Source: Candidatus Nealsoniibacteriota bacterium (GTDB taxonomy: Bacteria > Patescibacteriota > Minisyncoccia > Minisyncoccales > RBG-13-42-11). From it: 42,333 nt of DNA. The translations under genes and the position numbers were made by a program. Location: contig JAPLXL010000003.1 of NCBI GenBank assembly GCA_026396115.1, positions 1-42,333 of the forward strand, in the 5' to 3' direction. Positions 1-38,026 of the stretch are shown piece after piece (within the stretch, counting starts at the first letter, position 1; every line of letters begins with the position of its first letter). The notes beneath the pieces were generated by a model, which saw nothing but the letters and a program-made list of their open reading frames with translations, made no database searches and had not been told where the DNA came from.

Positions 1-645
1 GGAGTCAAATTATCCGATCCTTCTTTTTTAAATAAATTAGTGTCATCAGGAGTTGACGAATTAAGAATTCCCATTTATGGCTCTAACGCAAAAGTTCATG
101 ATTCTGTCACTCGAACACCGGGCAGTTTTAACAAAGTGGTAACCGGAATTAAAAATCTGCTAAAAAAAACTTCTAAAATAGAAATCCAGATAAGTTGCTT
201 AATCATGAAGCAGAACAAAAACGATCTTTTGAATATAGTTGATTTTGTAAACAAATTAGGAATAAAAGACTTTTACTTTTCAATTCCCTGTATACAAGAA
301 GATGATATTTCTTTTTATATTCCCCTCAAGGATCTGGGTCCTTATTTAAAAAAACTCTATAATTACGCTCTAAAAATTAACGATGAAATTAAATTTATGG
401 AAATACCTTTTTGTGTTTTTGGTGAACTTAACACAAAAAATATTATTAGTAAATGTTCACCTCCCAATTTAGGTGAATACAACCAACCGCCGGAACAAGT
501 TAGAACATCAATACCGGACCTTCCTTCGTATAGATTGAAGAAAAAGCTTAAAATTTGTAGTAATTGTAAAGCTTATAACGATTGTGATGGATTTTTTGTC
601 AATGATATCGATAAATTTGGGCCTGGAAAAATTAAGAAAATTTAA
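1..645 (+). CDS. Radical SAM protein, C-terminal part (5' end outside window)
   Basis: The frame is open from base 1, so the start and the expected N-terminal CxxxCxxC cluster site lie upstream of the window. The visible part carries the family signature HDSVTRTPGSF (about 25 residues into the open frame), also present in the two other radical SAM proteins nearby, followed by barrel strands and a C-terminal cysteine set (FCVFG, a further Cys, then CSNCKAYNDC). That set looks like a SPASM/twitch-type auxiliary Fe-S site. The end motif FGPGKIKKI matches FGWEEFKPIKY and FGRNEFKPIKN of the paralogues. These enzymes cleave S-adenosylmethionine to start radical chemistry; the substrate is unknown. 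A 47-nt gap separates it from the next paralogue, so the two are probably co-transcribed. Confidence 0.8.
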   Translation, partial: GVKLSDPSFLNKLVSSGVDELRIPIYGSNAKVHDSVTRTPGSFNKVVTGIKNLLKKTSKIEIQISCLIMKQNKNDLLNIVDFVNKLGIKDFYFSIPCIQEDDISFYIPLKDLGPYLKKLYNYALKINDEIKFMEIPFCVFGELNTKNIISKCSPPNLGEYNQPPEQVRTSIPDLPSYRLKKKLKICSNCKAYNDCDGFFVNDIDKFGPGKIKKI

Positions 646-692
646 GGGTTTAGTTAAATTCTTATATTAGAAATAAATAATAATTAAGATAA

Positions 693-1568
693 ATGAGTAA
701 TAGCAAGAGAGTTGATATTAAAATAGGCTTTCAGTGTAATAATTCTTGCCGGTTTTGCATACAAGGTGACAAAAGAAACAAGTTTCCGAATAAAACCGCC
801 GAAGAAGTAAAAAATATATTAAAAAAAGAAAAAAATAACTGTGATAGCGTATTATTTACTGGTGGAGAGCCAACCATCCAAAAAAATCTTGTTGACTATG
901 TAAAATATGCAAAAGGAAGACTTTTTGCATATAAAGATTATTGTATAGAGTTAATTAAAGCTGGTGTAGATGTTTTTAATCCTGCAATTCATGGCTCGTG
1001 TTCAGAGATTCATGATTATTTAACCCGTTCACCTGGTAGTTTTAAACAAACATTAAAAGGAATTAAAAATTTGAAAAAATTAAACCAGATTATTGGTACC
1101 CAAACCGTAATAACTAAAATCAATTATCAGGATATTCCCAACATAGCAAAAATGATGATTGATTTAAAACCTAATTTTTTTCAATTTGCCTTTATGCACA
1201 TTAATCCCATTATTCAGGAAAATCCACAACTAATTGAAGAGATTGTACCAAGATATTCGCAAGTGGAATCTTATGTGAAAGAAGGACTACAAATTGGGGT
1301 TAATGCCGGTGTTGAGACAAGAACAGAGGCCATTACTTATTGTTTTATGAAAGGATATGAAAGCCATATAACGGGAAATAAAACTCCTACTACCACCGTT
1401 TATGATGCAAATAAAATAATTGAAAACTTTAACGAAGTAAGAAAAACTCAAGGAAAGTCTAAAGGTCCTAACTGTCAAAGATGCAAGTATGATGAGATTT
1501 GCGAGGGTCCGTGGAGAGATTATCCAGAAATTTTTGGATGGGAAGAATTTAAGCCGATAAAATATTAA
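693..1568 (+). CDS. Radical SAM protein with apparent internal deletion
   Basis: The N-terminus has the radical SAM 4Fe-4S site CNNSCRFC (CxxxCxxC), then FTGGEPTI, the strand that contacts SAM. The family signature HDYLTRSPGSF and the C-terminal CQRCKYDEICEGPW with FGWEEFKPIKY (probable auxiliary cluster) follow. Length 291 aa. Between YVKYAK and GRLFAYKDY about 13-14 residues expected from relatives are absent: the third paralogue has FPEVIIELDING at this point. The lost stretch would be the barrel strand ending in Asn-Gly, removed in frame. The protein may therefore be non-functional or altered. Start ATG at 693 has no strong ribosome site. Substrate and product are not recognisable. Confidence 0.85.
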   Translation: MSNSKRVDIKIGFQCNNSCRFCIQGDKRNKFPNKTAEEVKNILKKEKNNCDSVLFTGGEPTIQKNLVDYVKYAKGRLFAYKDYCIELIKAGVDVFNPAIHGSCSEIHDYLTRSPGSFKQTLKGIKNLKKLNQIIGTQTVITKINYQDIPNIAKMMIDLKPNFFQFAFMHINPIIQENPQLIEEIVPRYSQVESYVKEGLQIGVNAGVETRTEAITYCFMKGYESHITGNKTPTTTVYDANKIIENFNEVRKTQGKSKGPNCQRCKYDEICEGPWRDYPEIFGWEEFKPIKY

Positions 1569-1656
1569 TATAACCTAGAATATGCGTGAATTATTGTTTA
1601 TCGTTTGCGTATATGATTAATGAATGAGGTAAAGAAATTATTAAAAAAATTAGTTT

Positions 1657-2781
1657 ATGGACCTAAATTTAATTTATTTTTTATTCTTACTTCCTCTTGC
1701 AATTGTAGGGATATCCTGTTCTTACACCGATATTAAATACGGTAAGATTTTTAATAAATGGATAATTCTAGGCTTTATTTATATTTTTTGCCTTTACATT
1801 TTTATATTTTTTTTTCTGGAAGGTAGGGTTTATATTTTTAAATTAATCCTAAATGGAACAATTGCTTTTTCAACGGGGTATTTGCTGTGGTACTTTAAAT
1901 TATGGTCAGCTGGCGATGCGAAGCTTTTTTCTGTTTACGCCTTTTTGGTTCCATTAGATTTTTATTCAAAAAGCTACGTACTTCATTTTCCTTCTTTTAA
2001 TTTATTAATGAACTTATTTGTTCCCCTTCTTCTTGTGTTAATTATTAGCGCGTTAATAGTAACTTTAAAGGAACTATACAAAGCTAAGGATAGAATAAAA
2101 AAATTAAAACTACCAGAAACTAAAAGAGTTTTTCAGCTTTTATCATATTTGTTTCAACTTTTTTTAAACTATGTTTTTGTTTTTATAATATTACAATCAA
2201 TTATTCTTCCTTTAACAAAACATTTTCCCATAAGTGAAGTTTTTAACAATCCATTTTTTATTTTTGCTTTATTGCTTTTAACAATTGTAAGCTTTAATAA
2301 AAAAAGAAGAGAAAAAAAATGGCTAAACTGGGTTCTTTACGGGGTTATTTTGGCTTATATTTGTTCAATTATTTTTTCAGGAGAATTTTTTGATCGTTTA
2401 ATAAATCTACTGAGAGTTTCTTTAGTTTTTATGGTTTTCGTGGGTTTAACCAGAAATATTTTAAATCTTTATGTTCAAAAAAGGGAAATAGAAAAAGTAA
2501 AAATCAAAAACATTAAGGAGGGTATGATTCTTACCAAAGACGAGTCCTCTATGTTTCTAAACAAGATTAAAGAAGATTTTGGAGCCTTGGACGCTGGGGG
2601 ATTGAGCAAAAACCAGGTAAAATTAATTAAAGAATTCTTTAAAAACAGCGAAGAATTGGAGATAAAAATTTATAAAACACTTCCTTTTGCGCCGTTTCTA
2701 TTTCTATCTGCTATCATTTCAGTTTTTACCCAAAGTTCTTTTCTCGTACTGATTGACAAAGCTTTTCGATATTTCTTATAA
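1657..2781 (+). CDS. A24-type prepilin/preflagellin peptidase
   Basis: A membrane aspartic protease of family A24, expected to remove the leader of type IV pilin precursors. Both catalytic Asp contexts are visible: SYTDIKYGKIFN (D25) and SAGDAKLF (D87). There are several hydrophobic membrane segments. At 374 aa it is longer than simple TadV/CpaA peptidases: a soluble C-terminal part (KEGMILTKDES, then KTLPFAPFLFL near the end) resembles the extension of archaeal FlaK/PibD-type preflagellin peptidases. There is no N-terminal cysteine-rich methyltransferase domain as in PilD. It lies away from the pilus operon at 11-21 kb but is the only candidate processing enzyme in the window. Its last bases are part of a 26-bp tandem duplication. 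Confidence 0.8.
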   Translation: MDLNLIYFLFLLPLAIVGISCSYTDIKYGKIFNKWIILGFIYIFCLYIFIFFFLEGRVYIFKLILNGTIAFSTGYLLWYFKLWSAGDAKLFSVYAFLVPLDFYSKSYVLHFPSFNLLMNLFVPLLLVLIISALIVTLKELYKAKDRIKKLKLPETKRVFQLLSYLFQLFLNYVFVFIILQSIILPLTKHFPISEVFNNPFFIFALLLLTIVSFNKKRREKKWLNWVLYGVILAYICSIIFSGEFFDRLINLLRVSLVFMVFVGLTRNILNLYVQKREIEKVKIKNIKEGMILTKDESSMFLNKIKEDFGALDAGGLSKNQVKLIKEFFKNSEELEIKIYKTLPFAPFLFLSAIISVFTQSSFLVLIDKAFRYFL

Positions 2782-2821
2782 TACAAGAAAGGTCGTATTT
2801 CTTATAATACAAGAAAGGTCG
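2770..2821 (+). repeat. 26-bp exact tandem duplication across a gene end
   Basis: Two identical 26-bp units, 2770-2795 and 2796-2821. Each contains the small hairpin TTTCTT-ATAATAC-AAGAAA. The first unit holds the last codons and the TAA stop of the prepilin peptidase, so the second copy is a duplicated 3' end in the spacer before the next gene. Confidence 0.95.
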
Positions 2822-2852
2822 AGAAGATTAAAAATTAAAAATAAAGAATTTT

Positions 2853-3314
2853 ATGCAAAATAAATTAATAATTTATTTGGGAATCTTTGGAGCAATTATT
2901 GTGATTTTCATGGCTGGCTTTTATGTAGCTTCTTTCTTCAAAAAACCGTTAGAATTGGGAGAAAAACCAGTAGAGGAAATAGGATATCTTAAATCTTTGG
3001 GAGCTCCATTTGTGCTTCATGGGTTTGTAATAAAGATAGATAGGGAGAAAACTCCGATGGAGATTATAGTTTCCGTGAATTTAGTTGGTAATTTTGAAAA
3101 TCCTCCTAGTCCCTCTATTACGAGGAAATTTTTAATTGATGACCAAACTCTTATATTTACTGGCAAATCAGGACCGGATGAGCCACTAACTCCTGCTAAC
3201 GTAGATGTATTGGAAGAAAAATCTCCAATTATTGTGACAGTGAGTGAAGATATTACAGAAATTTTAAACAGAGAAACTTTTTCTGTTCTGCGAATGAAAG
3301 TTATCAAAGAATAA
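2853..3314 (+). CDS. Single-pass exported/membrane-anchored protein, unknown function
   Basis: 153 aa. Residues about 5-29 form one hydrophobic segment (IIYLGIFGAIIVIFMAGFYVA) followed by FFKKP, so an N-terminal anchor or uncleaved signal is likely and the rest should lie outside the cytoplasm. The remainder is beta-rich with no cysteine and no motif I recognise (FVLHGFVIKIDRE, then TRKFLIDDQTLIFTGK). It follows the prepilin peptidase by 71 nt, the gap being mostly the duplicated 26-bp unit. A pilus-related role is possible from position alone, but nothing in the sequence demonstrates it. Confidence 0.6.
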   Translation: MQNKLIIYLGIFGAIIVIFMAGFYVASFFKKPLELGEKPVEEIGYLKSLGAPFVLHGFVIKIDREKTPMEIIVSVNLVGNFENPPSPSITRKFLIDDQTLIFTGKSGPDEPLTPANVDVLEEKSPIIVTVSEDITEILNRETFSVLRMKVIKE

Positions 3315-3339
3315 ACTATCAAAATAGTAAAAATTAGAT

Positions 3340-3407
3340 GCCTCCTCTTTATATTTAATCTTTGTTTTCCTATTGTGGGGTGAAGGAATGTTGTTATAAG
3401 AGGAGGC
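3340..3407. repeat. Long-loop inverted repeat
   Basis: GCCTCCTCTT at 3340-3349 is perfectly complementary to AAGAGGAGGC at 3398-3407, with a 48-nt loop. It has no T-run, so it is not a typical intrinsic terminator. Its position 26 nt after the stop of the exported-protein gene would allow a 3' UTR structure or a small structured RNA. Confidence 0.6.
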
Positions 3408-3467
3408 AGTAGTTTGTCTGTTGTAGGGAAGAATAAAAACGAATTTAATTTTGTAACAAAGACGATT

Positions 3468-3496
3468 TTTCAAAACCGGTAATTTTTTGATAAAAT
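3468..3496 (+). promoter_or_regulatory. Promoter-like sequence, extended -10
   Basis: TTTCAA (3468-3473), 17 nt, then TAAAAT (3491-3496) preceded by TGA, giving an extended -10. The same TTTCAA-N17-TAAAAT arrangement precedes the histidine kinase gene. The next frame is the broken small gene at 3735, so transcription here would start with a leader of over 200 nt. Confidence 0.4.
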
Positions 3497-3734
3497 TTTA
3501 AGTTAATGATGAGTTAATTAACCATTATCCAAAATGCTTCCCAAAATATCGACATGGCTTATAGTCTAACGATTGAAAAGATTGTAGGGTAGCGTAAAAG
3601 ATGTAAAGGATGTTATGAATTTTGCAAAAACGTGTAAGAATCATATAATAAATTGGTTTTACTGACATTCATCTTAAATGATTATGGTGTTGTTGTTTTT
3701 TAAATCAAACCAATATTAATAATAAATATTAATT

Positions 3735-3975
3735 ATGAAAAAAGATCAGACTAAAAAAGAGTATATCGTAACTTATTGCAGCCAAGAGCATTTCAAGGTT
3801 TTAGGGTGGTAAAGCTTCTAATTTAGAAGAAGCAATGGATCGTGCCCAGAGGGAGTTAAAAAAAGAGGCAAAATTCTATGAAGTAGAAGAAACAATGATT
3901 GGAGAAATTAAAGATGAAAAAAAGTTATTTTCGATATTAATTAGTTATCAAAAAACTAAGAATAGAACAGAATAA
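3735..3975 (+). pseudogene. Broken copy of the small HicB-like protein gene
   Basis: The frame starts MKKDQTKKEYIVTYCSQEHF and stops after 25 codons (TAA at 3810). Shifting frame there restores KASNLEEAMDRAQREL and runs open to the TAA at 3973. The intact paralogue at 6699 has GGTGGGTTAAAG where this copy has GGTGGTAAAG, so a 2-nt loss explains the break. Bases 3780-3833 match 6756-6811 almost exactly (one substitution plus the 2-nt deletion), while the flanks have diverged. The stop at 3975 abuts the ATG of the glycosyltransferase gene. Confidence 0.85.
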
Positions 3976-5814
3976 ATGGATATAATAAACCAGCAATTTA
4001 TTCATAGTTTAACCTTGAATTTGCATAATAAAATTCCTTTTTTGATTTTGGTAAATTTTATTTTACTTTTAATCCTTATTTTTCTTAATAGAGAAGAATT
4101 AAAATTATTTTTTAAAAAGATAAAAAGAAAAACTTGGATAATTCTCTTTTTAATTTTCTTTTTAGCATTGGCCTTAAGATTATTTTTAATCCCTCATTTT
4201 TTAAGAACCTTTTATGACGAGGCCTGGCATATTGGAGCCGCAGAACGATTAGTTGAAAGTAATTTTTTAGACCAGGGGAATTATGCCAAAGGAGTAGGGT
4301 GGCCTTTTATTTTGGCTATCTTTTTTAAATTATTTGGGGTAAGCAATTGGACTGCTTTATATACTTCATCTGTTTTTGGAGCTTTGACTATATTTAATAT
4401 TTTTCTAATTGGTTTTTCATTTTTCAAGAAAGAAAAAATTGCCTTGTGGTCAGCTTTTTTGTTTTCAATAATACCCCTTCATGTAATTTGGTCTGGTTCT
4501 TCTATCGCGAACATTTCTTCTATTTTTTTTGCAACTTTTGCTCTATTTATTTCATCATTATATTTTAGAAACAAAACGCTACCTCTATTTTGTCTTTCCT
4601 TAATATCGTTAGCTTTTGCAGCCCAGTTTAGGCAGGAGAACTATATCTATTTTTTAATATTTTTTATAGGTCTATTAATTTTTAAGAATTTTTCATTTAG
4701 AAAGATAAAATTTACAAAATTAGATTGTTTTAGGAAAAAAAATTTGATAATTTATATACTCTTATTTTTACTCATCGGCATTTTTGTTCTACCTAGTTTC
4801 ATCCAAGTTCTCGATTTTCAGTTGTTTACTAATTGGGCTCAGCGTGAATCAGGAGGAAAGCTTTTGACTCAAAATTGGTCTGTGCCAAATCTAATCTATA
4901 ATTTTTCAACCTGGGGAAAAGATATTTTTACTAATAAATATCACCCTCTTGTTTTTTCATTCCTTTTTATCTTAGGCATTATTTATCTGTTTAAAAGAGA
5001 ACGTCAAAAACTGCTTTTTTTACTAATTTGGTTCTTTTCTCTTTTCTTCATCTATTTTTGTTCTTGGCCAACATTAGGATGGGAATCTCGGTTTCTTTTA
5101 AGTTTTTACCCTATAACTTCAATATTTGCCGGGGTTGGTATTTATATTATCTGCAAAAAGTTATCTGGAAAATTTAATTCTAATAACCTAACTATATTTT
5201 TTGTTTCCATTCTTCTATTCTTATTTTCCTTTTTTATTGGAAAGGGAATAATCTATAATCTTGCGGAAATAGAAGCTATTTTAGAGACAAAAATTCCGGA
5301 AATGGCCCAGAATGAAATTCCTTCGAACTGTGTTATTGTGACTAATGTGCCGGAAATGATTTCAGCAACCACTGATTTACGAGCCATTCAACTCAGTTCT
5401 TTTTTGAATTCGCAATTTTTAGAAAATCGTTATAATATTATATTTCCTTCTCAGGAAGAACTTAGCCTTGAAATTAAAGAGGATAAAAATGTTTTTCTTT
5501 CCCATCAAGGGTATAAGACTGACTGCGTACTCTTTTTTGAAGATTTTTATTGCGAAAAAGGGTCTCCAGTTTTCCCTGAATTTGTAGAAGATTGCAAAAA
5601 AATTAAAAATAAATATAATGCAGTACCTTATCTAACCTATTCAGAAAAAGAGGTATCTGTAAAATTAATAAGTTCTTATTTAAATTTTTTCCCATTGCTA
5701 GCAAATGTTAGCAACGTAGACAAGAAAAGAATAAATACCATAAAACCAGCTGTTGGAGAAGAGAACATTAAAAGTTATACTTTTTATAAACTTTATCCTA
5801 AGCTATCCCAGTAA
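3976..5814 (+). CDS. Membrane glycosyltransferase of the PMT/ArnT (GT39/GT83) type
   Basis: 612 aa with about ten or more hydrophobic segments. The first periplasmic loop has FYDEAWHIGAAERL (D81, E82) followed by GVGWPFILAIFFKLFG, the arrangement of the catalytic-loop acidic residues in PMT_2-type transferases that use polyprenyl-phosphate sugars. The C-terminal 180 residues are less hydrophobic and probably extracytoplasmic. Such enzymes add sugars to surface proteins, lipids or polysaccharides; the acceptor here cannot be inferred. It starts directly after the stop of the broken small gene, and its own stop overlaps the start of the radical SAM N-terminal frame. Confidence 0.8.
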   Translation: MDIINQQFIHSLTLNLHNKIPFLILVNFILLLILIFLNREELKLFFKKIKRKTWIILFLIFFLALALRLFLIPHFLRTFYDEAWHIGAAERLVESNFLDQGNYAKGVGWPFILAIFFKLFGVSNWTALYTSSVFGALTIFNIFLIGFSFFKKEKIALWSAFLFSIIPLHVIWSGSSIANISSIFFATFALFISSLYFRNKTLPLFCLSLISLAFAAQFRQENYIYFLIFFIGLLIFKNFSFRKIKFTKLDCFRKKNLIIYILLFLLIGIFVLPSFIQVLDFQLFTNWAQRESGGKLLTQNWSVPNLIYNFSTWGKDIFTNKYHPLVFSFLFILGIIYLFKRERQKLLFLLIWFFSLFFIYFCSWPTLGWESRFLLSFYPITSIFAGVGIYIICKKLSGKFNSNNLTIFFVSILLFLFSFFIGKGIIYNLAEIEAILETKIPEMAQNEIPSNCVIVTNVPEMISATTDLRAIQLSSFLNSQFLENRYNIIFPSQEELSLEIKEDKNVFLSHQGYKTDCVLFFEDFYCEKGSPVFPEFVEDCKKIKNKYNAVPYLTYSEKEVSVKLISSYLNFFPLLANVSNVDKKRINTIKPAVGEENIKSYTFYKLYPKLSQ

Positions 5815-5931
5815 TTTGTATTTGGAACAAATGTAATAGTAGATGTATTATGTGTACTAATCAGACTGAATTTCAAGCTAAAGATCCCTATAAGGATTAC
5901 AGTTTTAGCGAACTTAAAAAAAATTAGCAGA
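5814..5931 (+). pseudogene. N-terminal segment of the third radical SAM gene, separated by a frameshift
   Basis: In the frame of base 5814 the sequence reads ICIWNKCNSRCIMCTNQ, containing the radical SAM site CNSRCIMC, and continues to FSELKKN before a TAG at 5925. The downstream enzyme frame (ATG 5932) lacks this site but is open upstream as NLKKISRMRIF. The switch falls in a run of eight A at 5916-5923; seven A would give one continuous protein (FSELKKISRMRIFDNKGNL). No ATG opens the upstream frame (in-frame stop at 5799), so an ATT start at 5814 or further decay must be assumed. Confidence 0.8.
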
Positions 5932-6690
5932 ATGAGAATTTTCGATAATAAAGGCAATTTAATTGATGATAAAATCATTTTAACGGGCGGAGAACCGACT
6001 ATTCATCCGGATTTTTTTGGAATACTTTCTTTTATTAGAAAAAAATTTCCTGAAGTAATAATAGAATTAGATATCAACGGAAGTAGATTTTGTTATCCTT
6101 CTTTCACTAAAAAAGTTTTGTCATTTGGAAGAGTGAATATTTATATATTTTTACATGGATTTGACCCGAAAACTCACGATACTATTACCAGAACCTTGGG
6201 AAGTTTTTTGCAAACTGTAAAAGGGATAGAAAATATTTTGAAATATAGAAATCTCAGTCTTCACGAATTAGAGTTAAGGATTATTATCACTAGACTTACT
6301 TATCAATATATTGAAAAAATATTAAAATTTATAAAAGAAGATTTCCCTCAAGCAGACAGAATAGTGGTTATTTTTATGGAAATGGAAGAACAAGCAGGAG
6401 ATAATTTTAAAATTGTCGGTCTTACCTACAGTCAGTTTCAAAAATTTATATCAAAAATAGCCAAATGGATTCAGAAATTTAAAGAATTCCGTTTCTATCA
6501 TTTTCCTTTATGTACGCTTGATTCTAAATATTGGAAATACATACATAGAACCTTGCCAGACAATGAAGTTTCCTTTTTAAAATCTCGTGATAATTGTCTT
6601 TATAAAGAATATTGTCTTGGTATTCATTTTAGATACTTGGAGAATTTTGGAAGAAATGAGTTCAAACCAATTAAAAATAAAATGAATTAA
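5932..6690 (+). CDS. Radical SAM protein body (frameshifted relative to its cluster-binding N-terminus)
   Basis: The frame as it stands encodes 252 aa: ILTGGEPTIHPDF (SAM-contact strand), HDTITRTLGSFLQTVKGIENIL (signature shared with the two radical SAM proteins at the window start) and a C-terminal CLYKEYCLGIH with FGRNEFKPIKN. The catalytic CxxxCxxC is missing from this frame and lies in the preceding 118 nt in another frame. Unless the A8 run is a sequencing error or a slippery site, the product cannot hold the catalytic cluster. Eight nt separate its stop from the small HicB-like gene, suggesting one operon with it and the glycosyltransferase. Confidence 0.75.
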   Translation: MRIFDNKGNLIDDKIILTGGEPTIHPDFFGILSFIRKKFPEVIIELDINGSRFCYPSFTKKVLSFGRVNIYIFLHGFDPKTHDTITRTLGSFLQTVKGIENILKYRNLSLHELELRIIITRLTYQYIEKILKFIKEDFPQADRIVVIFMEMEEQAGDNFKIVGLTYSQFQKFISKIAKWIQKFKEFRFYHFPLCTLDSKYWKYIHRTLPDNEVSFLKSRDNCLYKEYCLGIHFRYLENFGRNEFKPIKNKMN

Positions 6691-6698
6691 AAATTAAA

Positions 6699-6923
6699 AT
6701 GGCAAAAAAATTTACTCTTAAAACAGATGAAAAAGATTATATTGTGATCTATGAAAGCCAAGAGCATTTCGAGGTTTTAGGGTGGGTTAAAGCTTCTAAT
6801 TTAGAAGAAGCTATTAAAAATGCGGAAGAAACATTAATAAATGAAATAAAGAAATATAGTGTAAAAAACGCTGAAATAGCTGAATGGAAAGATGGCAGAG
6901 AAATTTCTTTTAATATAGAGTAA
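6699..6923 (+). CDS. Small HicB-like protein of unknown function
   Basis: 74 aa: YIVIYESQEHFEVLGWVKA, then NLEEAIKNAEETL, then a short tail. The strand-strand-helix pattern with a Gly-Trp and the LEEAIxNAEE helix resembles HicB-type antitoxin/RNase-H-like small domains, but there is no DNA-binding domain and no HicA-like partner nearby. It has no cysteine. It is translated just after the third radical SAM protein (8-nt gap), and a broken copy lies 2.9 kb upstream. A partner or substrate role for the radical SAM enzyme is speculative. Confidence 0.65.
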   Translation: MAKKFTLKTDEKDYIVIYESQEHFEVLGWVKASNLEEAIKNAEETLINEIKKYSVKNAEIAEWKDGREISFNIE

Positions 6924-6951
6924 TTAGTTTTTATAAATGATATTCATTTGG

Positions 6952-6986
6952 GACATCTGGAGCGATTTCAAAAACGTCCAGATGTC
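6952..6986. repeat. Perfect 10-bp inverted repeat
   Basis: GACATCTGGA (6952-6961) and TCCAGATGTC (6977-6986), 15-nt loop, 28 nt after the stop of the small gene. Without a T-run it is a weak terminator candidate; an operator or RNA hairpin is possible. Confidence 0.65.
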
Positions 6987-7008
6987 AAACGCTTACAATC
7001 AAGGCAAA

Positions 7009-7165
7009 ATGGATACAATAAATATTTTGATTACTGAAGCTGAAAAATGCGAACCGGTTCCTATTTTAGCAAGATATTCAAACAGGTAGAATTAGAGGAA
7101 TTATTGTTGCTGACCATGTAGATGCGTCATTAGCGAAACCATTGAGTGCAAAAGGTGTACTTTAG
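7009..7165 (+). pseudogene. Possible decayed coding remnant
   Basis: Within the 449-nt gap 6924-7372 one frame reads MDTINILITEAEKCEPV and PILARYSNR then stops at 7087, while the +1 frame continues TGRIRGIIVADHVDASL and AKPLSAKGVL before a stop near 7163. The junction gives a plausible continuous peptide if one indel is undone. No family is recognised. Apart from this, the inverted repeat at 6952 and the promoter at 7290, nothing else is seen in the gap. Confidence 0.3.
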
Positions 7166-7289
7166 ATGTTTCTTTCCGGTATGAAAATGGGTAGTTGCAG
7201 ATTTTAGATGAATAACTAATAACATTTTTACTTACTTTCAAGAAGAGACAACAAATTTTGCCCTCTCTTTTTGTAAGTTTAACAAGAGC

Positions 7290-7318
7290 TTGACAAGATA
7301 AATTAAAAAATGTATAAT
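7290..7318 (+). promoter_or_regulatory. Consensus sigma70-type promoter
   Basis: TTGACA at 7290-7295, a 17-nt spacer and TATAAT at 7313-7318: both hexamers and the spacing match the consensus exactly. It lies 58 nt upstream of the short membrane-peptide gene. Confidence 0.85.
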
Positions 7319-7375
7319 TAGGACAGATTTAATTTAACAATTGAATGTATATTTAATAAAGGAGGATGAGTTGTG

Positions 7376-7708
7376 ATGAAAAGGATGACAATTATCTCAT
7401 TGATTTGTGTGTGTCTATTAGTAGTGGTGCTTGTCGGCTATAGCCGTATTTATTTAGTAGATATAAATAATCTATATAATCTTAAATATGGGGCTAGGAT
7501 TGTACTCGTTATTAAAGAATTATGCCTTATAAAAGGAAAAGATTATTTATTATGTGGTACAGAATTAATAGATACAAATAAAAATTTAATATTAATATAT
7601 GTACCACCATTAAGGGCACCATTAAGGGCAACGGCTTTAGGGAGTGAGGTTAACTATACAGATGTTTTTGTCCTGACAGGGTATATTACTATCCAAGGGG
7701 ATCCTTAA
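7376..7708 (+). CDS. Short exported or membrane-anchored protein, unknown function
   Basis: 110 aa from ATG 7376; GTG 7373 is equally in frame. GGAGG at 7361-7365 gives good spacing for either, one of very few clear Shine-Dalgarno sites in the window. The N-terminus MKRMTIISLICVCLLVVVLV is a signal peptide or anchor; it ends in VGYSR with no lipobox. The rest contains two Cys (KELCLIKGKDYLLCGTEL), possibly a disulfide, and an imperfect internal repeat (LRAPLRAT). The gene is a self-contained unit: consensus promoter, ribosome site, gene, hairpin and terminator. No homologue is recognised; high expression is expected from its signals. Confidence 0.65.
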   Translation: MKRMTIISLICVCLLVVVLVGYSRIYLVDINNLYNLKYGARIVLVIKELCLIKGKDYLLCGTELIDTNKNLILIYVPPLRAPLRATALGSEVNYTDVFVLTGYITIQGDP

Positions 7709-7717
7709 TTGATCTCA

Positions 7718-7745
7718 GGAGGAGATAAATATTTTTATCTCCTCC
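7718..7745 (+). terminator. Perfect 12-bp hairpin after the peptide gene
   Basis: GGAGGAGATAAA (7718-7729), loop TATT, TTTATCTCCTCC (7734-7745). A very stable hairpin 10 nt after the stop, without a T-run of its own; it probably stabilises the 3' end before the terminator at 7765. Confidence 0.6.
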
Positions 7746-7764
7746 CGTCATTTAGTTAGCAGAC

Positions 7765-7789
7765 GCTCTTTACAAGAAGAGCTTTTTTT
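7765..7789 (+). terminator. Intrinsic terminator
   Basis: GCTCTT (7765-7770), 6-nt loop, AAGAGC (7777-7782), then seven T. It closes the short transcription unit started at 7290. Confidence 0.85.
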
Positions 7790-7898
7790 ATTAAAATGGG
7801 CCTAGAAATTAATCACTGAAATTTGGTGAATAATTTTGATACCCAAAGTATCAAATCTATGTTCAATTACCCGAATTATAATGAAATTATAATAAAGG

Positions 7899-9542: not shown

Positions 9543-9645
9543 AGCGGGCGAGGCGAAGAGAACTTCGTTCTCTTCTTCACCTTCGCTTCCATAAATGGAA
9601 GCTCGGTAAGAGATAAATCTTTTCTTTTGCTCTGTGCTATCGCTT
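9543..9645 (+). repeat. Two-hairpin dispersed element plus partial copy, beside tRNA-Gly(UCC)
   Basis: GGCGAAGAGAAC-TTC-GTTCTCTTC, linker TTCACCTTCG, stem CTTCCAT-AA-ATGGAAG, tail CTCGGTA: a full copy at about 9552-9613. A second partial hairpin (AGAGATAAATCTTTTC) and TTGCTCTGTGCTATCGCTTGAGC follow. The last motif recurs beside the other tRNA-Gly gene at 26805-26825. On the tRNA strand these lie just 3' of the tRNA. Confidence 0.85.
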
Positions 9646-9646
9646 G

Positions 9647-9717
9647 AGCGGGTGATGGGAATTGAACCCACATAAATAGCTTGGAAAGCTATCACACTGC
9701 CATTGTGTTACACCCGC
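9647..9717 (-). tRNA. tRNA-Gly(UCC)
   Basis: Acceptor GCGGGTG/CACCCGC, anticodon loop TTTCCAA between ATAGC and GCTAT, T-loop TTCAATT. No encoded CCA. Confidence 0.93.
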
Positions 9718-9841: not shown

Positions 9842-9847
9842 TTAGAT

Positions 9848-9905
9848 GATGAGATTTTTGCGAAATTTCATCTAAGAAGCTTCGTAAATTTCTAACGAAA
9901 TTTAC
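9848..9905 (+). promoter_or_regulatory. Two consecutive hairpins in the leader of the histidine kinase gene
   Basis: Hairpin 1: GATGAGATTT (9848-9857), loop TTGCG, AAATTTCATC (9863-9872), with one G-T pair. Hairpin 2: after TTCG, GTAAATTT (9884-9891), loop CTAACG, AAATTTAC (9898-9905), then TTGCTAAATTA and the ATG at 9917. The layout is the same as the two-hairpin elements elsewhere but with different stems. A near-identical hairpin 2 precedes rplS. Confidence 0.75.
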
Positions 9906-9916
9906 TTGCTAAATTA

Positions 9917-10864: not shown

Positions 10865-10882
10865 AAAAATAATCCTTGGTGG

Positions 10883-10936
10883 TCGATGAAATTAAAATTT
10901 CATCTCCACCTTCGCCCGTTGAAACGGGCTCGGTAT
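10883..10936 (+). repeat. Two-hairpin dispersed element abutting a start codon
   Basis: Hairpin 1: GATGAAATT-AA-AATTTCATC (10885-10904). Linker TCCACCTTC. Hairpin 2: GCCCGTT-GA-AACGGGC (10914-10929). Tail TCGGTAT directly before ATG 10937. The reading frame of the element continues into the gene (ARY-M) without a stop. Confidence 0.9.
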
Positions 10937-11312: not shown

Positions 11313-11380
11313 TTAGGTTTTAGCTTCTTAGGTTTTTGGAAAAATTCCTAAAAAGCTAATTCCTAACACCTAAAACCTAA
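11313..11380 (+). promoter_or_regulatory. Large inverted repeat immediately before the pilus ATPase start
   Basis: TTAGGTTTTAG (11313-11323) pairs perfectly with CTAAAACCTAA (11370-11380); inside it, GCTTCTTAGG can pair imperfectly with CCTAAAAAGC. The hairpin base is 3 nt from the ATG at 11384, so translation would start at the foot of the stem. Stem sequence differs from the other start-proximal hairpins. Confidence 0.75.
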
Positions 11381-11383
11381 TCA

Positions 11384-16403: not shown

Positions 16404-16458
16404 GTCGAAGAGGACTTCGTCTTCTTCTTCACCTTCACTTCCTTCGGAAGCTTGGTAT
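16404..16458 (+). repeat. Two-hairpin dispersed element abutting the next pilin start
   Basis: GTCGAAGAGGAC-TTC-GTCTTCTTC, linker TTCACCTTC, stem ACTTCC-TTC-GGAAGC, tail TTGGTAT and then ATG 16459. The element frame (SSSSSPSLPSEAWY) is open into the gene. Confidence 0.9.
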
Positions 16459-21304: not shown

Positions 21305-21310
21305 AATAAT

Positions 21311-21361
21311 CAATGAATTTTCAATTCATTTCAATCTTCAATAAATTTTCAATTTATTTCG
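21311..21361 (+). repeat. Two AT-rich hairpins abutting a start codon
   Basis: AATGAATT-TTC-AATTCATT (21312-21330) and AATAAATT-TTC-AATTTATT (21340-21358), then TCG and ATG 21362. The stems differ at two paired positions in a compensatory way. Confidence 0.88.
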
Positions 21362-21664
21362 ATGCTTAAAATAAAATTTAAAAAAATTAAAAAATCTTTA
21401 AAAAATCTGCCAAGAATTTTGGCAGAAAAAAGTTTTTTGACTTTTTTAGGGTTATTTTTTGTCGTTTTTCTTTTGGGATTGGCTGTTTTTTATTATTCCT
21501 ATGTTTTTTTAACCGAAATTTCCGATGAAACCATAGAGGAAGAAAAACTATTGAAACTTGACATGGAAAGCCAGCAAAAAGTTTTAGAGGAATGGCAAAA
21601 AAGAAACGAAAAATTCTTGGAGGCCGATATCAAAGAATATCCCGACCCCTTTAAAGTTGACTAA
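21362..21664 (+). CDS. Small single-pass membrane protein at the end of the pilus operon
   Basis: 100 aa. Basic N-terminus (KIKFKKIKKSLK), one membrane helix (about 26-50), then a short acidic coiled coil and the C-terminal KEYPDPFKVD. It follows pilO by 57 nt, which is filled by two AT-rich hairpins. Its place matches pilP, and the YPDPF end resembles the proline-rich linker that some pilus proteins use for contacts, but no PilP domain is present. Called a pilus-associated protein of unknown function. Confidence 0.6.
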   Translation: MLKIKFKKIKKSLKNLPRILAEKSFLTFLGLFFVVFLLGLAVFYYSYVFLTEISDETIEEEKLLKLDMESQQKVLEEWQKRNEKFLEADIKEYPDPFKVD

Positions 21665-23854: not shown

Positions 23855-25472
23855 GCCGCAGCAAGAGGGGAAGAAGAGAATTTATCCTCTTCGACCTCCC
23901 GAGCCGCAGCGAGGGGCGGAGAAGAAGATTTATCTTCTTCGACCGCCAATCGTGGTGGTTCTGGGACATATTGATCATGGGAAGACCTCTCTCCTTACCG
24001 CCATAAAGGATTTTAAAATTTTAGAGAAAGAAACCGGAGGTATTACTCAACATATCGGGGCTTACCAGATTGAACATCAGGGTAAAAAAATCACTTTTCT
24101 TGATACGCCGGGCCATGAGGCTTTTTCTCAAATGCGCTCCAGGGGAGCGAAAGTGGCTGATATCGCAATTTTAGTTATTGATGCGGCAGAAGGAGTAAAG
24201 TCTCAAACAAAAGAAGCAATCTCACATATTAAAAAAGCCGGAATTCCGGTAATAATTGCTTTAAATAAAATTGACAAGCCTGAAGCCAATCCGGAAAAAG
24301 CAAAAAGAGAATTATCTCAAGAAGGTTTTTTAGTTGAGTCATTGGGAGGTAAGGTTCCTTCGCTTGAAATTTCAGCTAAAACCAAAAAGGGTATCCCCGA
24401 ACTTTTAGAATTAATTTTATTGGTAGCAGAAATGGAGGAATTAAAAGCCGATTCTCAAAAACCGGGGGAAGGCCTGGTCATTGAATCGTATTTGGACAAT
24501 TTAAGAGGCCCTACCGCCACCTTGCTTTTAACCGACGGCCACTTGAAAATAGGAGATACGGTTGGCACAAATTCAGCTTCTGTCAGAATTAAAAACATAG
24601 AAAATTTTCAAAAAACTTCCGTTCAAAAGGCACTTCCTTCAGACCCCGTGATTATTTTCGGTTTTAATCAAGCTCCTGGAGTTGGTGAGAAATTTAAGGT
24701 TTTTCCGGATTTGGCAAGCGCTGAAAATTATATTAAAACTTCAAAGGGCGGAGAAGATAAATCTTCTTCTTCCCCCTTCGCTGTCGCTCGGGAAGAAAAA
24801 GGAAAAGCTTCGGAAGTTTTAGAGGCAACTGATCAACAAAAGGTTTTAAATTTAATTTTAAAAACCGATGTTTTGGGATCTGCCGAAGCTATGGAAGGAA
24901 TTTTAAACTCTTTTCCGCAAGAAAAGATTTTTTTAAAGATTCTAAAATCAGAAACAGGCAACATTAACGAATCCGATATTAAATTAGCTCTCAGCAGCAG
25001 AGCAACAATTTTGGGCTTTAGGGTGAAGATGGATTTTATTGCTAAAAAGATGGCCGAGCGGGAAAAAGTTAAGATAATAATTTTTGAAGTTATTTATGAT
25101 TTGGTCGAGAGAGTGCGTAAAATAATGGAAAAAATTGTTGAACCGAAAGAATTGAGGACGGATTTTGGAAAAGTAAAAGTTTTAGCTAAATTTCTAACAG
25201 AAAAAAACCGCCAGATTATTGGTGGTAGAGTAACAGAGGGGGAGATAAAAAAAGGAGCTCTGATCGAAGTTTTTAGACCTGCCCGCGACGCAGGTGGAGG
25301 GAGGACAGAAGAGAAGATTGGACAAGGAAAAATGATTAACCTCCAAAGAAACAAAAAAAATGCAGTTTTAATCTCAAAAGGAGAAGAATGCGGGATTTTA
25401 TTTGAGGGAGATGTAATAATTGAAGAAGGAGATATTTTGTTGTTTTACACAGAAGAAAAGAAAAAAGGCTAG
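23817..25472 (+). CDS. infB: Translation initiation factor IF-2, short form
   Basis: 551 aa from the ATGATG at 23817. The GTPase begins almost at once: G1 VVLGHIDHGKTSLL, G2/switch TGGITQHIGAYQI, G3 LDTPGHEAFSQM, G4 ALNKIDKPEANP, G5 EISAKTKKG, then domains II-IV (KTDVLGSAEAMEGIL; GKVKVLAKF; GEECGILFEGD). The IF2_N region found in most bacteria is absent. The leader contains two tandem reverse copies of the dispersed element, read as RPPEPQQEGKKRIYPL and RPPEPQRGAEKKIYLL. A forward copy at 24745-24793 is read as GGEDKSSSSPFAVAREE. A GC-rich hairpin at 25278-25294 adds PARDAGGGR. Confidence 0.93.
   Translation: MMKNQKTTTRPPEPQQEGKKRIYPLRPPEPQRGAEKKIYLLRPPIVVVLGHIDHGKTSLLTAIKDFKILEKETGGITQHIGAYQIEHQGKKITFLDTPGHEAFSQMRSRGAKVADIAILVIDAAEGVKSQTKEAISHIKKAGIPVIIALNKIDKPEANPEKAKRELSQEGFLVESLGGKVPSLEISAKTKKGIPELLELILLVAEMEELKADSQKPGEGLVIESYLDNLRGPTATLLLTDGHLKIGDTVGTNSASVRIKNIENFQKTSVQKALPSDPVIIFGFNQAPGVGEKFKVFPDLASAENYIKTSKGGEDKSSSSPFAVAREEKGKASEVLEATDQQKVLNLILKTDVLGSAEAMEGILNSFPQEKIFLKILKSETGNINESDIKLALSSRATILGFRVKMDFIAKKMAEREKVKIIIFEVIYDLVERVRKIMEKIVEPKELRTDFGKVKVLAKFLTEKNRQIIGGRVTEGEIKKGALIEVFRPARDAGGGRTEEKIGQGKMINLQRNKKNAVLISKGEECGILFEGDVIIEEGDILLFYTEEKKKG
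23849..23943 (-). repeat. Two tandem dispersed elements inside the infB leader
   Basis: Reverse-oriented copies at about 23849-23894 and 23897-23943; hairpin 1 of the second is GAAGAAGAT-TT-ATCTTCTTC. Both copies begin with the GAGCCGCAGC hairpin-2 variant also seen (reverse complement) at about 13185. They are translated in phase with infB. Confidence 0.88.
24745..24793 (+). repeat. Dispersed element inside infB
   Basis: GGGCGGAGAAGAT-AA-ATCTTC then TTCTTCCCCCTTCG, CTGTCG and CTCGGGA. Forward orientation, in frame, between IF-2 domains II and III. Confidence 0.85.
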
Positions 25473-26131: not shown

Positions 26132-26665
26132 TTATCCTTCCAGAACTTCTATATACGTTCTTTTAGTTCCAAAGTTGAGGGCTTCCCAATAAGAAGGAAA
26201 CCAGATGTCAAAATGATAATCTTCTTTTCTCCAGTGCATCCGGTCCTCAATTACAAAAATTTTATCTCCATAAATCTCAGGAAATCTAACCTTTGTACCA
26301 AAAGAATATTTATTATTAGCTACAATTCCATCTCTTACTTCAGTTCCGGCAGCAGTAATAAAAGGGTTGCCATCAGTTTCCCAGGGCGTGCTGGAGTAAG
26401 CGGTAATAATTACCAGAAGTTTTTTGACGATTTTGAGTTCCGGATTAGATGGATCAGAAGCCGAAATCAAAGTGTTTTCGTTAAAAAGTAGCAATTTTTC
26501 TTGAGCGAAAAGATTTTCCTCCAAAAACAACTCGGCTTCGCTTTTTTTAATAGGCAAAGCCAAAAAAGGCATTCCAACAATTAAAATTATCAGACCGATG
26601 AAGAAAAAGAGGGAAATTTTTGTTTTATTACCCGATAAAGCGGGGAATTTAGAGTTAATATCCAT
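26132..26665 (-). CDS. Membrane-anchored 3D-domain protein
   Basis: 177 aa. N-terminal anchor (ISLFFFIGLIILIVGMPFLA, about 17-36), then a 3D domain: VIITAYSSTPWETDGNPFIT, AAGTEVRDGIVANN, FGTKVRFPEIYGDKIFVIED and FDIWFPSYWEALNFGTK, with the conserved Asp residues (IEDRMHW, HFDIWF). 3D domains are double-psi-beta-barrel modules of MltA/YabE/YuiC-type lytic transglycosylases, so a role in peptidoglycan cleavage outside the membrane is likely. A perfect hairpin (26670-26690) lies 4 nt upstream of its ATG. Confidence 0.82.
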   Translation of the reverse strand: MDINSKFPALSGNKTKISLFFFIGLIILIVGMPFLALPIKKSEAELFLEENLFAQEKLLLFNENTLISASDPSNPELKIVKKLLVIITAYSSTPWETDGNPFITAAGTEVRDGIVANNKYSFGTKVRFPEIYGDKIFVIEDRMHWRKEDYHFDIWFPSYWEALNFGTKRTYIEVLEG

Positions 26666-26669
26666 TTTA

Positions 26670-26690
26670 AAATCCCGTTTTACGGGATTT
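26670..26690 (-). promoter_or_regulatory. Perfect hairpin abutting the start of the 3D-domain gene
   Basis: AAATCCCGT-TTT-ACGGGATTT, 9-bp stem and 3-nt loop, ending 4 nt before the start codon on the minus strand. Confidence 0.7.
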
Positions 26691-26754: not shown

Positions 26755-26822
26755 GCGAAAAGAAATTCATCTCTTTGAGTGGCGAAGAGATAAATCTCTT
26801 CTTTGCTCTGTGCTATCGCTTG
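26755..26822. repeat. Dispersed-element fragments beside tRNA-Gly(GCC)
   Basis: GGCGAAAAGAAATTCATCTC, then GGCGAAGAGAT-AA-ATCTCTTC, then TTGCTCTGTGCTATCGCTTG followed by AGCGGG. The last motif and the tRNA 3' end match the flank of tRNA-Gly(UCC) at 9626-9660 closely. Confidence 0.8.
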
Positions 26823-26893
26823 AGCGGGTGATGGGAATCGAACCCACGTGCTCTGATTGGCAACCAGATGCACTACCATTGTGCTACACCCGC
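26823..26893 (-). tRNA. tRNA-Gly(GCC)
   Basis: Acceptor GCGGGTG/CACCCGC, anticodon loop TTGCCAA, T-loop TTCGATT. Confidence 0.94.
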
Positions 26894-27672: not shown

Positions 27673-27680
27673 TTTAGTGA

Positions 27681-27702
27681 GTGAATTTCGTTAGAAATTT
27701 AC
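27681..27702 (-). promoter_or_regulatory. Start-proximal hairpin before rplS
   Basis: On the minus strand TTCG then TAAATTT-CTAACG-AAATTCA, then CTCACTAAA and ATG. It is nearly the same as hairpin 2 before the histidine kinase gene (9884-9905). Confidence 0.65.
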
Positions 27703-27710
27703 GAAACTTT

Positions 27711-28331
27711 TTAGAGTTTTAGATTCTTTAATATTTTTTTTAAATCATTGGGCAATTCTGATTTAAATTCTTTTTCTCGACCATTTGGCAAATTTATCTT
27801 TAAACGATGAGAGTGTAAAAAATGTCTTTTTAATTCTTTGGGCGCAGGCTGATTTTTGAATCCGTACATTTTATCTCCGGCAATCGGATGGCCGAGATGA
27901 GCAAAATGGGTTCTGATTTGGTGCTTTCGGCCGGTCTTGAGTTCAACCTCAATCAAATCATAATCTTTAAATCTTTGCAATACTTTATATTTAGTAATTG
28001 CCTTTCTTTTTCCTTGAGAACCGGGTTCATGGGCTAGATATACTTTTTGTTTTTTTCTGTCTCCGGTTGAGCGCCCGATTAAAGTTTCAATTACCCCTTC
28101 TTTATTTTTAAGATTGCCGACTATTAAAGCCAAATATTTCTTCTTGACTCTTCTCTCTTTGAATTGCTTTTGGAAAAACTCTAAGGCCTTGCCACTTTTT
28201 GCTATTAAAAGTATTCCTGAAGTATCTTTATCTAATCTGTGAACTCTTTTTTGAAAATCATCGGAGTTTATTCCTGCTGGCTTGTCTATGACCAGCAAAT
28301 TTTCGTCTTCGTAAATAATATTAAACTTCAT
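27711..28331 (-). CDS. RluA-family 23S rRNA pseudouridine synthase
   Basis: 206 aa: YEDENLLVIDKPAGI, the catalytic motif VHRLDKDTSGILLIAKS (catalytic Asp in HRLD), LKTGRKHQIRTHFAHLGHPI and AGDKMYGF. It isomerises uridines in rRNA or tRNA. No N-terminal S4 domain, so it resembles the short RluA/RluC-like forms; the exact target is not decidable. It lies upstream of rplS with a 38-nt gap, probably one operon. Confidence 0.9.
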   Translation of the reverse strand: MKFNIIYEDENLLVIDKPAGINSDDFQKRVHRLDKDTSGILLIAKSGKALEFFQKQFKERRVKKKYLALIVGNLKNKEGVIETLIGRSTGDRKKQKVYLAHEPGSQGKRKAITKYKVLQRFKDYDLIEVELKTGRKHQIRTHFAHLGHPIAGDKMYGFKNQPAPKELKRHFLHSHRLKINLPNGREKEFKSELPNDLKKILKNLKL

Positions 28332-30685: not shown

Positions 30686-31834
30686 CTAATCAACCAATTT
30701 TAAACTTATTCGGTGTTCAACAGAATTAATGGAAAGGATTTGAAATTTGTATTTTTCGCTTATTTTTAAGGCTTCTTCCATTTTTGTTTTGGTTCCAAAT
30801 TCGGAAATATGGCAAAGTCCTTGAATTTTTGGAGTAATTTGAACAAAGACTCCGTAATGATAAAATTTGGTTACTTTACCTTCAATCACATCTCCTTTTT
30901 TATATTCTTTTTCAATATCTTTCCAGGGATCTTTTTTTAGGGCTTTCAAAGACAGGGAAACTTTATTATCGGAAATAGAAATAATTTTTGCCTTAACTTT
31001 TTCCCCCACTTTTACAACATTAGCCGGATTTTCGATCAGTTGCCAGTCCAATTCGGATATATGTATCAACCCCTCGATAAATTCAGGACAAGTTATTTCT
31101 AATTCTTGCCCTTTATAAGTCTGAGTCGAAGAAGATTCCTTTTTCTCCACCTCAGCTAACGCTTCGGTAGCTGAAGATTCGGCGGGGAACTTCATAAAAG
31201 CTCCAAAGTCGGTGATACCGGTGATTTCTCCTTTAACCACATCACCGACTTTATAATTTTTTAAAATTTCTTTTATTCTCCCATCTTTTTTGGCTTTTTC
31301 TGATAAAATCAATTTTCCTTGTTTTGAATCTAAATCAAGAACTTTAACTTCCATTTCTTTCCCAACAAATTTTTGAAGTTCTCCAATGATTTTAGAAACA
31401 TCCCCCTTTTCTACTCGAGGATAGTGTTCTGGCAGTAATTGGGAAACCGGTAAAAAAGCAGGGATGCCAAAAACTTCTGCTAAAAGACCTCCCTTGTTTG
31501 TCCCCAAAATTCTAACCTTTAGAGTTTCATCCTTGTCTTTTTGCTGTTTCAATTTTTCCCAGGTTAATTCGTCAGAGGCTTGGCTTAAAGAGAGTTCAAT
31601 ATAACCCTCTTCGTTCTCGAGGTCTATAATTTTGGCAAAAAGAGTGCTGCCAATTTTTGAATTCTTTATTTCTTCTCTGGCTTCTTGAAATTCTTTTCCG
31701 TAGATTATGCCTGTTCCCATCGGCCCCAAATCTAAAAAAACCGCAGACCTTGCTTTGCCGATAATTTTTCCTTCTACAATTTCACCAACTCTAAGAGGCT
31801 TTAAGAGATTATTTTTTTCCAGTAAATCTTTCAT
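30686..31834 (-). CDS. rpsA: Ribosomal protein S1 (four S1 domains)
   Basis: 382 aa. Four S1 RNA-binding repeats: VGEIVEGKIIGKARSAVFLD, ETLKVRILGTNKGGLLAEVF, VGDVVKGEITGITDFGAFMKF and KGDVIEGKVTKFYHYGVFVQ; the last ends LCHISEFGTK. S1 brings mRNA to the 30S subunit, which matters in a genome with few Shine-Dalgarno sites. Inside domain 3 a degenerate reverse copy of the dispersed element (31125-31185) adds AESSATEALAEVEKKESSST between FMKF and the strand that resumes with EGLIHISELDW. Confidence 0.9.
   Translation of the reverse strand: MKDLLEKNNLLKPLRVGEIVEGKIIGKARSAVFLDLGPMGTGIIYGKEFQEAREEIKNSKIGSTLFAKIIDLENEEGYIELSLSQASDELTWEKLKQQKDKDETLKVRILGTNKGGLLAEVFGIPAFLPVSQLLPEHYPRVEKGDVSKIIGELQKFVGKEMEVKVLDLDSKQGKLILSEKAKKDGRIKEILKNYKVGDVVKGEITGITDFGAFMKFPAESSATEALAEVEKKESSSTQTYKGQELEITCPEFIEGLIHISELDWQLIENPANVVKVGEKVKAKIISISDNKVSLSLKALKKDPWKDIEKEYKKGDVIEGKVTKFYHYGVFVQITPKIQGLCHISEFGTKTKMEEALKISEKYKFQILSINSVEHRISLKLVD
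31125..31185 (+). repeat. Degenerate dispersed element inside rpsA
   Basis: GTCGAAGAAGATTCC, TTTTTCTCCACC, then stem CAGCTA-ACGCTTCGG-TAGCTG. It lies antisense to rpsA and is read in the same phase as the copies in tsaD and hsp20. Confidence 0.65.
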
Positions 31835-35661: not shown

Positions 35662-35719
35662 TAAGGCGAAGAGGACTTCGTCCTCTTCTTTATCTTCGCT
35701 TCCTTCGGAAGCTTGCTAT
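35662..35719 (+). repeat. Two-hairpin dispersed element abutting a start codon
   Basis: AAGGCGAAGAGGAC-TTC-GTCCTCTTC, linker TTTATCTTCG, stem CTTCC-TTC-GGAAG, tail CTTGCTAT and ATG 35720. It begins about 10 nt after the gyrA stop. Confidence 0.92.
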
Positions 35720-37336: not shown

Positions 37337-38026
37337 TTATTCTCTAACAATAATTCTTCTTTTCTTTTCTCTTAAAATTTTAGGGATTCTAATTGTCAGA
37401 ATGTTGTTTTTCATTTCAGCCACAGCTCTTTGCGGGTCAACTTCAGAGGGCAGTATCACTTCTCTTGAAAAAGGTCCCCAAAAACATTCTTGGATAAAAT
37501 AGTCGCCGTTTTCTTCAAATGGTTTTTCTCTGCTTCCCTTAATGGTAATAATGTCTCTTTCAATTGAAATATCTAAATTTTCCGGCTTAACTCCGGCAAT
37601 TGCTGACTGAATAACCAAATCATTTTCGGTTTGATAAACATCAATTGCCAATTGTCCCTCTTCTATTTTGCCAAAAGAGGGCCATTTTTTTTCTTTTTGT
37701 TCCTTTAGTTCTTTTGGAGGTTCTTTTTCAGCCTGTTCTTTAACTTCTTCTTCTTCTCTTTCTTCTTCTCTTTCTTCTTCTGGCATTTTTGTTTGTGTTT
37801 CTAATTTTCTAATTTTTACTTCCGGCGATTCCTTTTCTTTTTTGGCAGTCGAAGAGAACTTCATTCTCTTCTCCACCTTCGCTTCCTTAGGAAGCTCGGT
37901 TTTTAATTTTTTCGGTTCTTTGCCCGTTTTTGTTTCAATTGGTTTTTCTTCTATTTCTTTTTCTGGTTCAGCAATTGGTTCTTCAATATCCATCCCCCTT
38001 TTTAATTTTTCAAAAAATGACGCCAT
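37337..38026 (-). CDS. Hsp20/alpha-crystallin family protein with long charged N-terminus
   Basis: 229 aa. The alpha-crystallin domain occupies about 125-229: QLAIDVYQTENDLVIQSAIA, GVKPENLDISIERDIITIKG, FSREVILPSEVDPQ and MKNNILTIRIPKI. The first 120 residues are a Lys/Glu-rich low-complexity arm, longer than in most Hsp20s. A reverse copy of the dispersed element lies inside this arm (37847-37900) and is read KTELPKEAKVEKRMKFSST. Small heat-shock proteins hold unfolded proteins. It is last in the tsaD-valS-prsW-hsp20 string, 3 nt after prsW. Confidence 0.88.
   Translation of the reverse strand: MASFFEKLKRGMDIEEPIAEPEKEIEEKPIETKTGKEPKKLKTELPKEAKVEKRMKFSSTAKKEKESPEVKIRKLETQTKMPEEEREEEREEEEVKEQAEKEPPKELKEQKEKKWPSFGKIEEGQLAIDVYQTENDLVIQSAIAGVKPENLDISIERDIITIKGSREKPFEENGDYFIQECFWGPFSREVILPSEVDPQRAVAEMKNNILTIRIPKILREKKRRIIVRE
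37847..37900 (+). repeat. Dispersed element inside hsp20
   Basis: GTCGAAGAGAA-CTTCA-TTCTCTTC, linker TCCACCTTCG, stem GCTTCC-TTA-GGAAGC, tail CTCGGT. Antisense to hsp20; same phase as in tsaD. Confidence 0.88.

Follow-up and report, generated by a model that had tools for sequence, protein, structure and literature searches.

Small dispersed palindromic DNA elements make up nearly all hairpins before start codons in a Nealsonbacteria-like genome

The window, a stretch of 42,333 nucleotides, is contig C8 of a Parcubacteria/Nealsonbacteria-like genome of 792,029 bases in 8 contigs (G000). We analyzed 427 kb of this genome, including 384 kb from other contigs. Its 324 genes were predicted by a small finder based on a Markov model; as this finder is simple, the start positions are predictions. 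The closest relatives of PilB, encoded in the window, come from Candidatus Paceibacterota/Nealsonbacteria/Parcubacteria MAGs. An Rfam search of the window for leader RNAs returned tRNAs only. The tRNA-Gly genes (TCC and GCC; 9626 to 9717 and 26802 to 26893) are adjoined by an identical tract, TTTGCTCTGTGCTATCGCTTGAGCGGGTGATGGGAAT.

The spacer between the response-regulator gene and pilB is palindromic (positions 11313 to 11383, plus strand). Its 11-bp outer stem is formed, as the preliminary description had reported, by TTAGGTTTTAG (11313 to 11323) and CTAAAACCTAA (11370 to 11380), followed by TCA and the pilB ATG at 11384; it encloses an inner hairpin, and the words are of the TTAGCTT/AAGCTAA type. 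The 76-nt spacer is single copy in this genome, and it resembles TTAGCTTCTTAG.../CTAAAAAGCTAA sequences detected (E ≤ 0.01) in 55 of the 196 genomes of the order, its own included; such sequences are multicopy in several genomes, and some lie near gene starts. The hairpin is absent from the nearest orthologue (L087, 86% identity), in which a short AT-rich spacer follows the response-regulator stop codon. Stems of at least 8 bp were found in 5 of 59 pilB leaders, versus 2.5 expected, and the hairpin is thus not kept at orthologous starts. On the basis of these 59 leaders and the hairpin-free nearest orthologue, we rejected a conserved leader; the pilB hairpin most likely represents a repeat type of which this genome happens to have a single copy. 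In the pilB leaders of L105, L138, L147, L111, L121, and L125 and in leaders of the relative G008, word repeats proper to each genome fill the spacers before the ATG, for example ATTCGTAATTCGTA or CGCTGAT/ATCAGCG, in both orientations.

Other genes of the window have small hairpin leaders of different kinds. The 3D-domain gene (26132 to 26665, minus strand) is preceded by a 9-bp hairpin, AAATCCCGT-AAA-ACGGGATTT (26670 to 26690, minus strand), which does end 4 nt before the ATG, as first described; nhmmer found no family for it in the 427 kb, a weak test since the seed lies mostly in coding sequence. The hairpin said to be shared by the leaders of the histidine-kinase gene (start at 9917) and rplS (27672, Pfam Ribosomal_L19) has a third copy at C2:9241-9308; the histidine-kinase leader (9845 to 9912, plus strand) contains two hairpins and belongs, according to nhmmer, to the same family as the rplS leader (27674 to 27715), with three copies in 427 kb. 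An AT-rich palindromic element (21310 to 21365, plus strand) ends in ATTTCG at the ATG at 21362 and is part of an AT family with 17 nhmmer matches in 427 kb. Besides this AT-rich family and the three-copy rplS-type family, the 427 kb contains a GA-rich superfamily that includes the dominant element, D2.

D2 is 50 to 57 bp long, reads [A]GGCGAAG...CTCGGT, and forms two hairpins. The best copy of the window, which served as reference (9552 to 9607, plus strand; R1 score of 79.4 bits), is intergenic and away from starts. Three others, all on the plus strand, end 2 nt before an ATG: at 10882 to 10934, where CTCGGT-AT-ATG leads into the response-regulator gene (ATG at 10937; R1, 57 bits), at 16404 to 16456 (ATG at 16459; R1, 64.3 bits), and at 35665 to 35717 (ATG at 35720; R1, 62.1 bits). 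The G006 orthologue of the last gene has a 2-nt spacer, and the element is absent. About 100 near-full-length matches occur in 427 kb, in both orientations, and a covariance model retrieved at least 148 matches from the genome as a whole. With the same model, we found 156 matches in G008, 72 in G022, 64 in G001, 62 in G006, and 56 in G026; G004 and G011 likewise fall in the range of 20 to 72, and the remaining relatives have 0 to 10 (3 in G002 and 0 or 1 in many). Evaluation of 26 D2 copies revealed that 91% of cells are paired and that 75 changes affect both sides of a pair, compared to 22.7 in shuffled data, with few G-U intermediates. This scarcity is as expected if the palindromes are kept up at the DNA level.

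We then evaluated hairpins before start codons at large. The preliminary description was right that most uncoupled genes beyond 9.9 kb have a hairpin close before the start (15 of 21 genes have a stem of 7 bp or more in the adjacent 60 nt) and that the accessory genes at 0.7 to 6.9 kb generally do not (1 of 5). Over the 427 kb, 23% of first genes have a perfect stem of 8 bp or more in the 60 nt before the start, versus 7% after dinucleotide shuffling; for operon-internal genes the figures are 2% versus 5%, which is no excess. Unrelated hairpins, proposed earlier as a class of their own, were not confirmed. In the 40-nt test suggested by the preliminary description, with repeat families masked, the leaders contained 10 stems of at least 7 bp for 9.95 expected, and 5 stems of at least 8 bp for 3.0 expected. 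RNAfold z scores of the 40-nt leaders agree, at -0.19 ± 0.12 for repeat-free first genes, -1.9 ± 0.24 for repeat-bearing ones, and -0.07 for internal genes. After masking, a modest excess is left at 60 nt (17 versus 8.2 expected), and a small one persists at 60 to 100 nt without known repeats, which could reflect terminators or unrecognized repeats. In the relative G002, whose sampled DNA has no D2 matches, leaders show no hairpin excess. Hairpin density per kb of gap is 3.8 in tandem, 3.9 in convergent, and 5.0 in divergent gaps. Since the excess lies almost wholly in leaders with dispersed palindromic repeats, a general start signal is unsupported; once repeats are set aside, 40-nt leaders show no excess over shuffled ones, the outcome that the preliminary description had named as refuting its proposal, and we rejected the start-marking architecture inferred there. 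Several families of small, dispersed palindromes account for nearly all hairpins before starts.

The accessory block at 0.7 to 7 kb, composed of two radical SAM genes and a gene for a PMT_2 protein, has a GC content of 0.29 to 0.33 and no palindromic elements. More broadly, positions 1 to 7800 of the window and C1:1-35000, which carries surface-polysaccharide genes, contain no palindromic repeat, and their GC content is low in part. The block had been regarded as foreign; its lack of elements, like that of the C1 stretch, would fit later acquisition. The block also contains a 56-nt repeat (3754 to 3809 and 6730 to 6785, 84% identity), perhaps duplicated remnants of one gene.

The exact register to the ATG stands for D2, in more than one genome. 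Of 23 start copies in G000, G008, and G006, 18 have the 3' end of the element 2 nt before the ATG (CTCGGT-NN-ATG). This register is part of a wider pattern, NNN-N-R-A, which follows D2 in 84 of 95 copies, in-gene ones included: NRA occupies positions +4 to +6 in 18/19 copies inside genes, 46/53 between genes, and 20/23 at starts, for a background of 21 to 29%, and in 15 of 15 copies of G022, a genome of another family (binomial P of 1e-8 to 1e-20). The trinucleotide ending the motif is often TGA, TAA, or CGA, and a start ATG-A supplies TGA; ATGA is found at 15 of 18 start copies, against a genome rate of 36 to 44% (P = 3e-4). The fixed register is therefore probably explained by a junction preference for NNN-N-R-A, which ATG-A fits. 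We infer that NNN-N-R-A is the target-site preference of a putative recombination or transposition machinery. Alternatively, the motif may belong to the element itself, though orthologues lacking the element also possess an ATG at that position. Element positions are not conserved: where a gene starts beside a repeat, its orthologue does so hardly more often than those of other genes (4/15 versus 10/54 in G008; 1/18 versus 2/52 in G006), and several such orthologues have a spacer of only -7 to 7 nt instead.

Elements also occur inside coding sequences, with 36 of them interior and in frame among the 324 predicted genes. Antisense D2 copies within genes use one phase in 8 of 10 cases, and the inserted peptides TELP..AKVKKRTKFSSP and GEEDKSSSSPFAVAR recur. 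For 32 inserts with a spanning orthologue, the insert was absent in all orthologues examined in 19 cases, at least one orthologue had sequence of similar length in 10, and 3 were mixed; among the roughly 10 cases with similar-length sequence, old insertions, chance matches, or alignment errors may be present. Two of the hosts, assigned by Pfam, are essential genes, tsaD and the IF-2 gene. In tsaD (41033 to 42190, minus strand), a D2 copy (42061 to 42125, minus strand; R1, 75.6 bits) adds ...NSKTELPFMETKVKKRTKFSS... in frame; it is absent in the G002, G006, and G007 orthologues, and G026 has sequence of similar length there. The insert is flanked by ETSCDDTCVAVLE and the NVVSSQVKLH segment, which can both be aligned to solved TsaD structures, and in our reading of the fold the site is a surface turn. 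A short element in the IF-2 gene (23952 to 25472; element at 24745 to 24800, plus strand) adds GGEDKSSSSPFAVARE in frame; the G007 orthologue, with 70% identity, does not have it. The gene for an S1-domain, ribosomal protein S1-like product (30686 to 31834, minus strand) has an in-frame element at 31121 to 31178 (minus strand), which is absent in the G007, G006, and G022 orthologues (66 to 72% identity). In the HSP20 gene (Pfam HSP20; 37337 to 38026, minus strand), D2 lies in frame at 37846 to 37906 (minus strand; TELPKEAKVEKRMKFSST; R1, 71.6 bits), in the variable N-terminal part of the protein; the site is shortened in G006 and full length in G007 and G026, so it is no clean empty site.

Shine-Dalgarno-like motifs are near shuffled levels in the leaders of G000, G006, G008, and G002. 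The 16S rRNA of this genome (L217; G000:C6:34241-35746) ends in GGATCACTACATTT, without CCTCC, and this anti-Shine-Dalgarno core was found in none of the 9 readable 16S tails of the order (L217, L220, L221, L222, L226, L228, L229, L232, and L233). With Shine-Dalgarno initiation lost, a hairpin beside the ATG would block no Shine-Dalgarno site.

We consider it highly probable that the hairpins are dispersed palindromic families, with D2 multiplied and inserted where tolerated and its start register arising from the junction preference. D2 has risen to high copy number here and in part of the relatives, and its copies lie in intergenic DNA, at exactly 2 nt upstream of ATG starts, and, in frame, inside genes; a putative recombination or transposition machinery that recognizes NNN-N-R-A would insert them. 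Tolerance beside the ATG would reflect the loss of Shine-Dalgarno initiation, template switching at the DNA level would keep the stems complementary, and the pilB hairpin would be a copy of another repeat type, with no conserved leader role. As for the mark of such a mechanism, direct repeats flanking D2 are weak (at least 6/7 identity in 7 of 81 non-tandem copies versus 1.4 expected; mean flank identity of 0.418 versus 0.358 ± 0.017), and any target-site duplication would be a weak mark of D2.

The hairpins might instead mark starts in general, guiding the ribosome from upstream of the ATG in place of the lost Shine-Dalgarno signal. The fixed 2-nt register, the lost anti-Shine-Dalgarno core with no Shine-Dalgarno signal found, and the hairpins at 15 of 21 uncoupled window genes after 9.9 kb are in its favor, but repeat-free starts lack an excess in the preceding 40 nt, convergent gaps are as dense in hairpins, G002 has no excess, element positions differ between orthologues, and in-gene copies have the same downstream motif, making this explanation very improbable. 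Strong covariation of both D2 helices and plausible -10 boxes before some hairpins, such as the 3D and histidine-kinase leaders, would suit RNA elements of the 5' UTR that stabilize or regulate the downstream gene's mRNA and spread through their usefulness. We judge this unlikely, as copies occur in both orientations, many of them in convergent gaps and inside genes, G-U intermediates are very few, and the elements are not conserved at orthologous genes. Scarcely credible is an origin as intrinsic terminators or ordinary hairpins of upstream genes, brought near the next start by short spacers: some first-gene hairpins do resemble terminators with a T run (the C3:1251 and C6:634 leaders), and the residual excess at 60 to 100 nt points the same way, but the common families have no T run, and some of their copies are in coding sequence or precede divergent genes.

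The best-known protein-coding palindromes are those of Rickettsia and Wolbachia. Rickettsia palindromic elements (RPE), which have counterparts in Wolbachia, are likewise dispersed palindromes, located in intergenic DNA and, as in-frame fusions, in conserved protein genes (PMC2229807). The elements of this genome share many dispersed copies and in-frame inserts absent from orthologues (19/32), and by these features their behavior is that of RPE, though in another phylum. RPE are 105 to 146 bp long and found in Rickettsia (PMC2229807), whereas D2 is a patescibacterial element of 50 to 57 bp with two hairpins and a register to ATG. REPs, including GTAG- and CGTC-tagged repeats, are short, high copy, often arrayed, and sometimes within genes, and the CGTC-tagged families have no dedicated transposase (PMC3733652). 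Aligned D2 copies end in GGCG/GTCG and CTCGGT, with neither tag, and a profile search of the whole genome of this bacterium did not find the Y1/RAYT transposase (PF01797) that accompanies GTAG REPs, for which reason we rejected RAYT/Y1 mobilization from within this genome. MITEs (Correia/NEMIS, RUP, and ERIC) are also small, non-autonomous, dispersed elements with possible target duplication, but we saw no TA-dinucleotide termini in D2, and its flanking direct repeats are weak. We did not find the element in the literature on palindromic, inverted, or intergenic repeats in Patescibacteria, Parcubacteria, or CPR, of which our coverage was incomplete.

A high-copy family present in IF-2, TsaD, and an S1-domain protein provides natural experiments on how proteins gain inserts, and its exact start-codon register provides others on translation start in the absence of Shine-Dalgarno pairing. 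The family is a hazard for annotation, too, since a start may be called wrongly within an element and inserted peptides recur across unrelated proteins. More tentatively, it is possible, though doubtful, that a palindrome machinery recognizing NNN-N-R-A repeatedly lands at ATG-A in a lineage that no longer initiates by Shine-Dalgarno pairing, and so exchanges leaders and extends essential proteins by new peptides with translation unharmed. If true, every such insertion would give a gene a new structured 5' leader.
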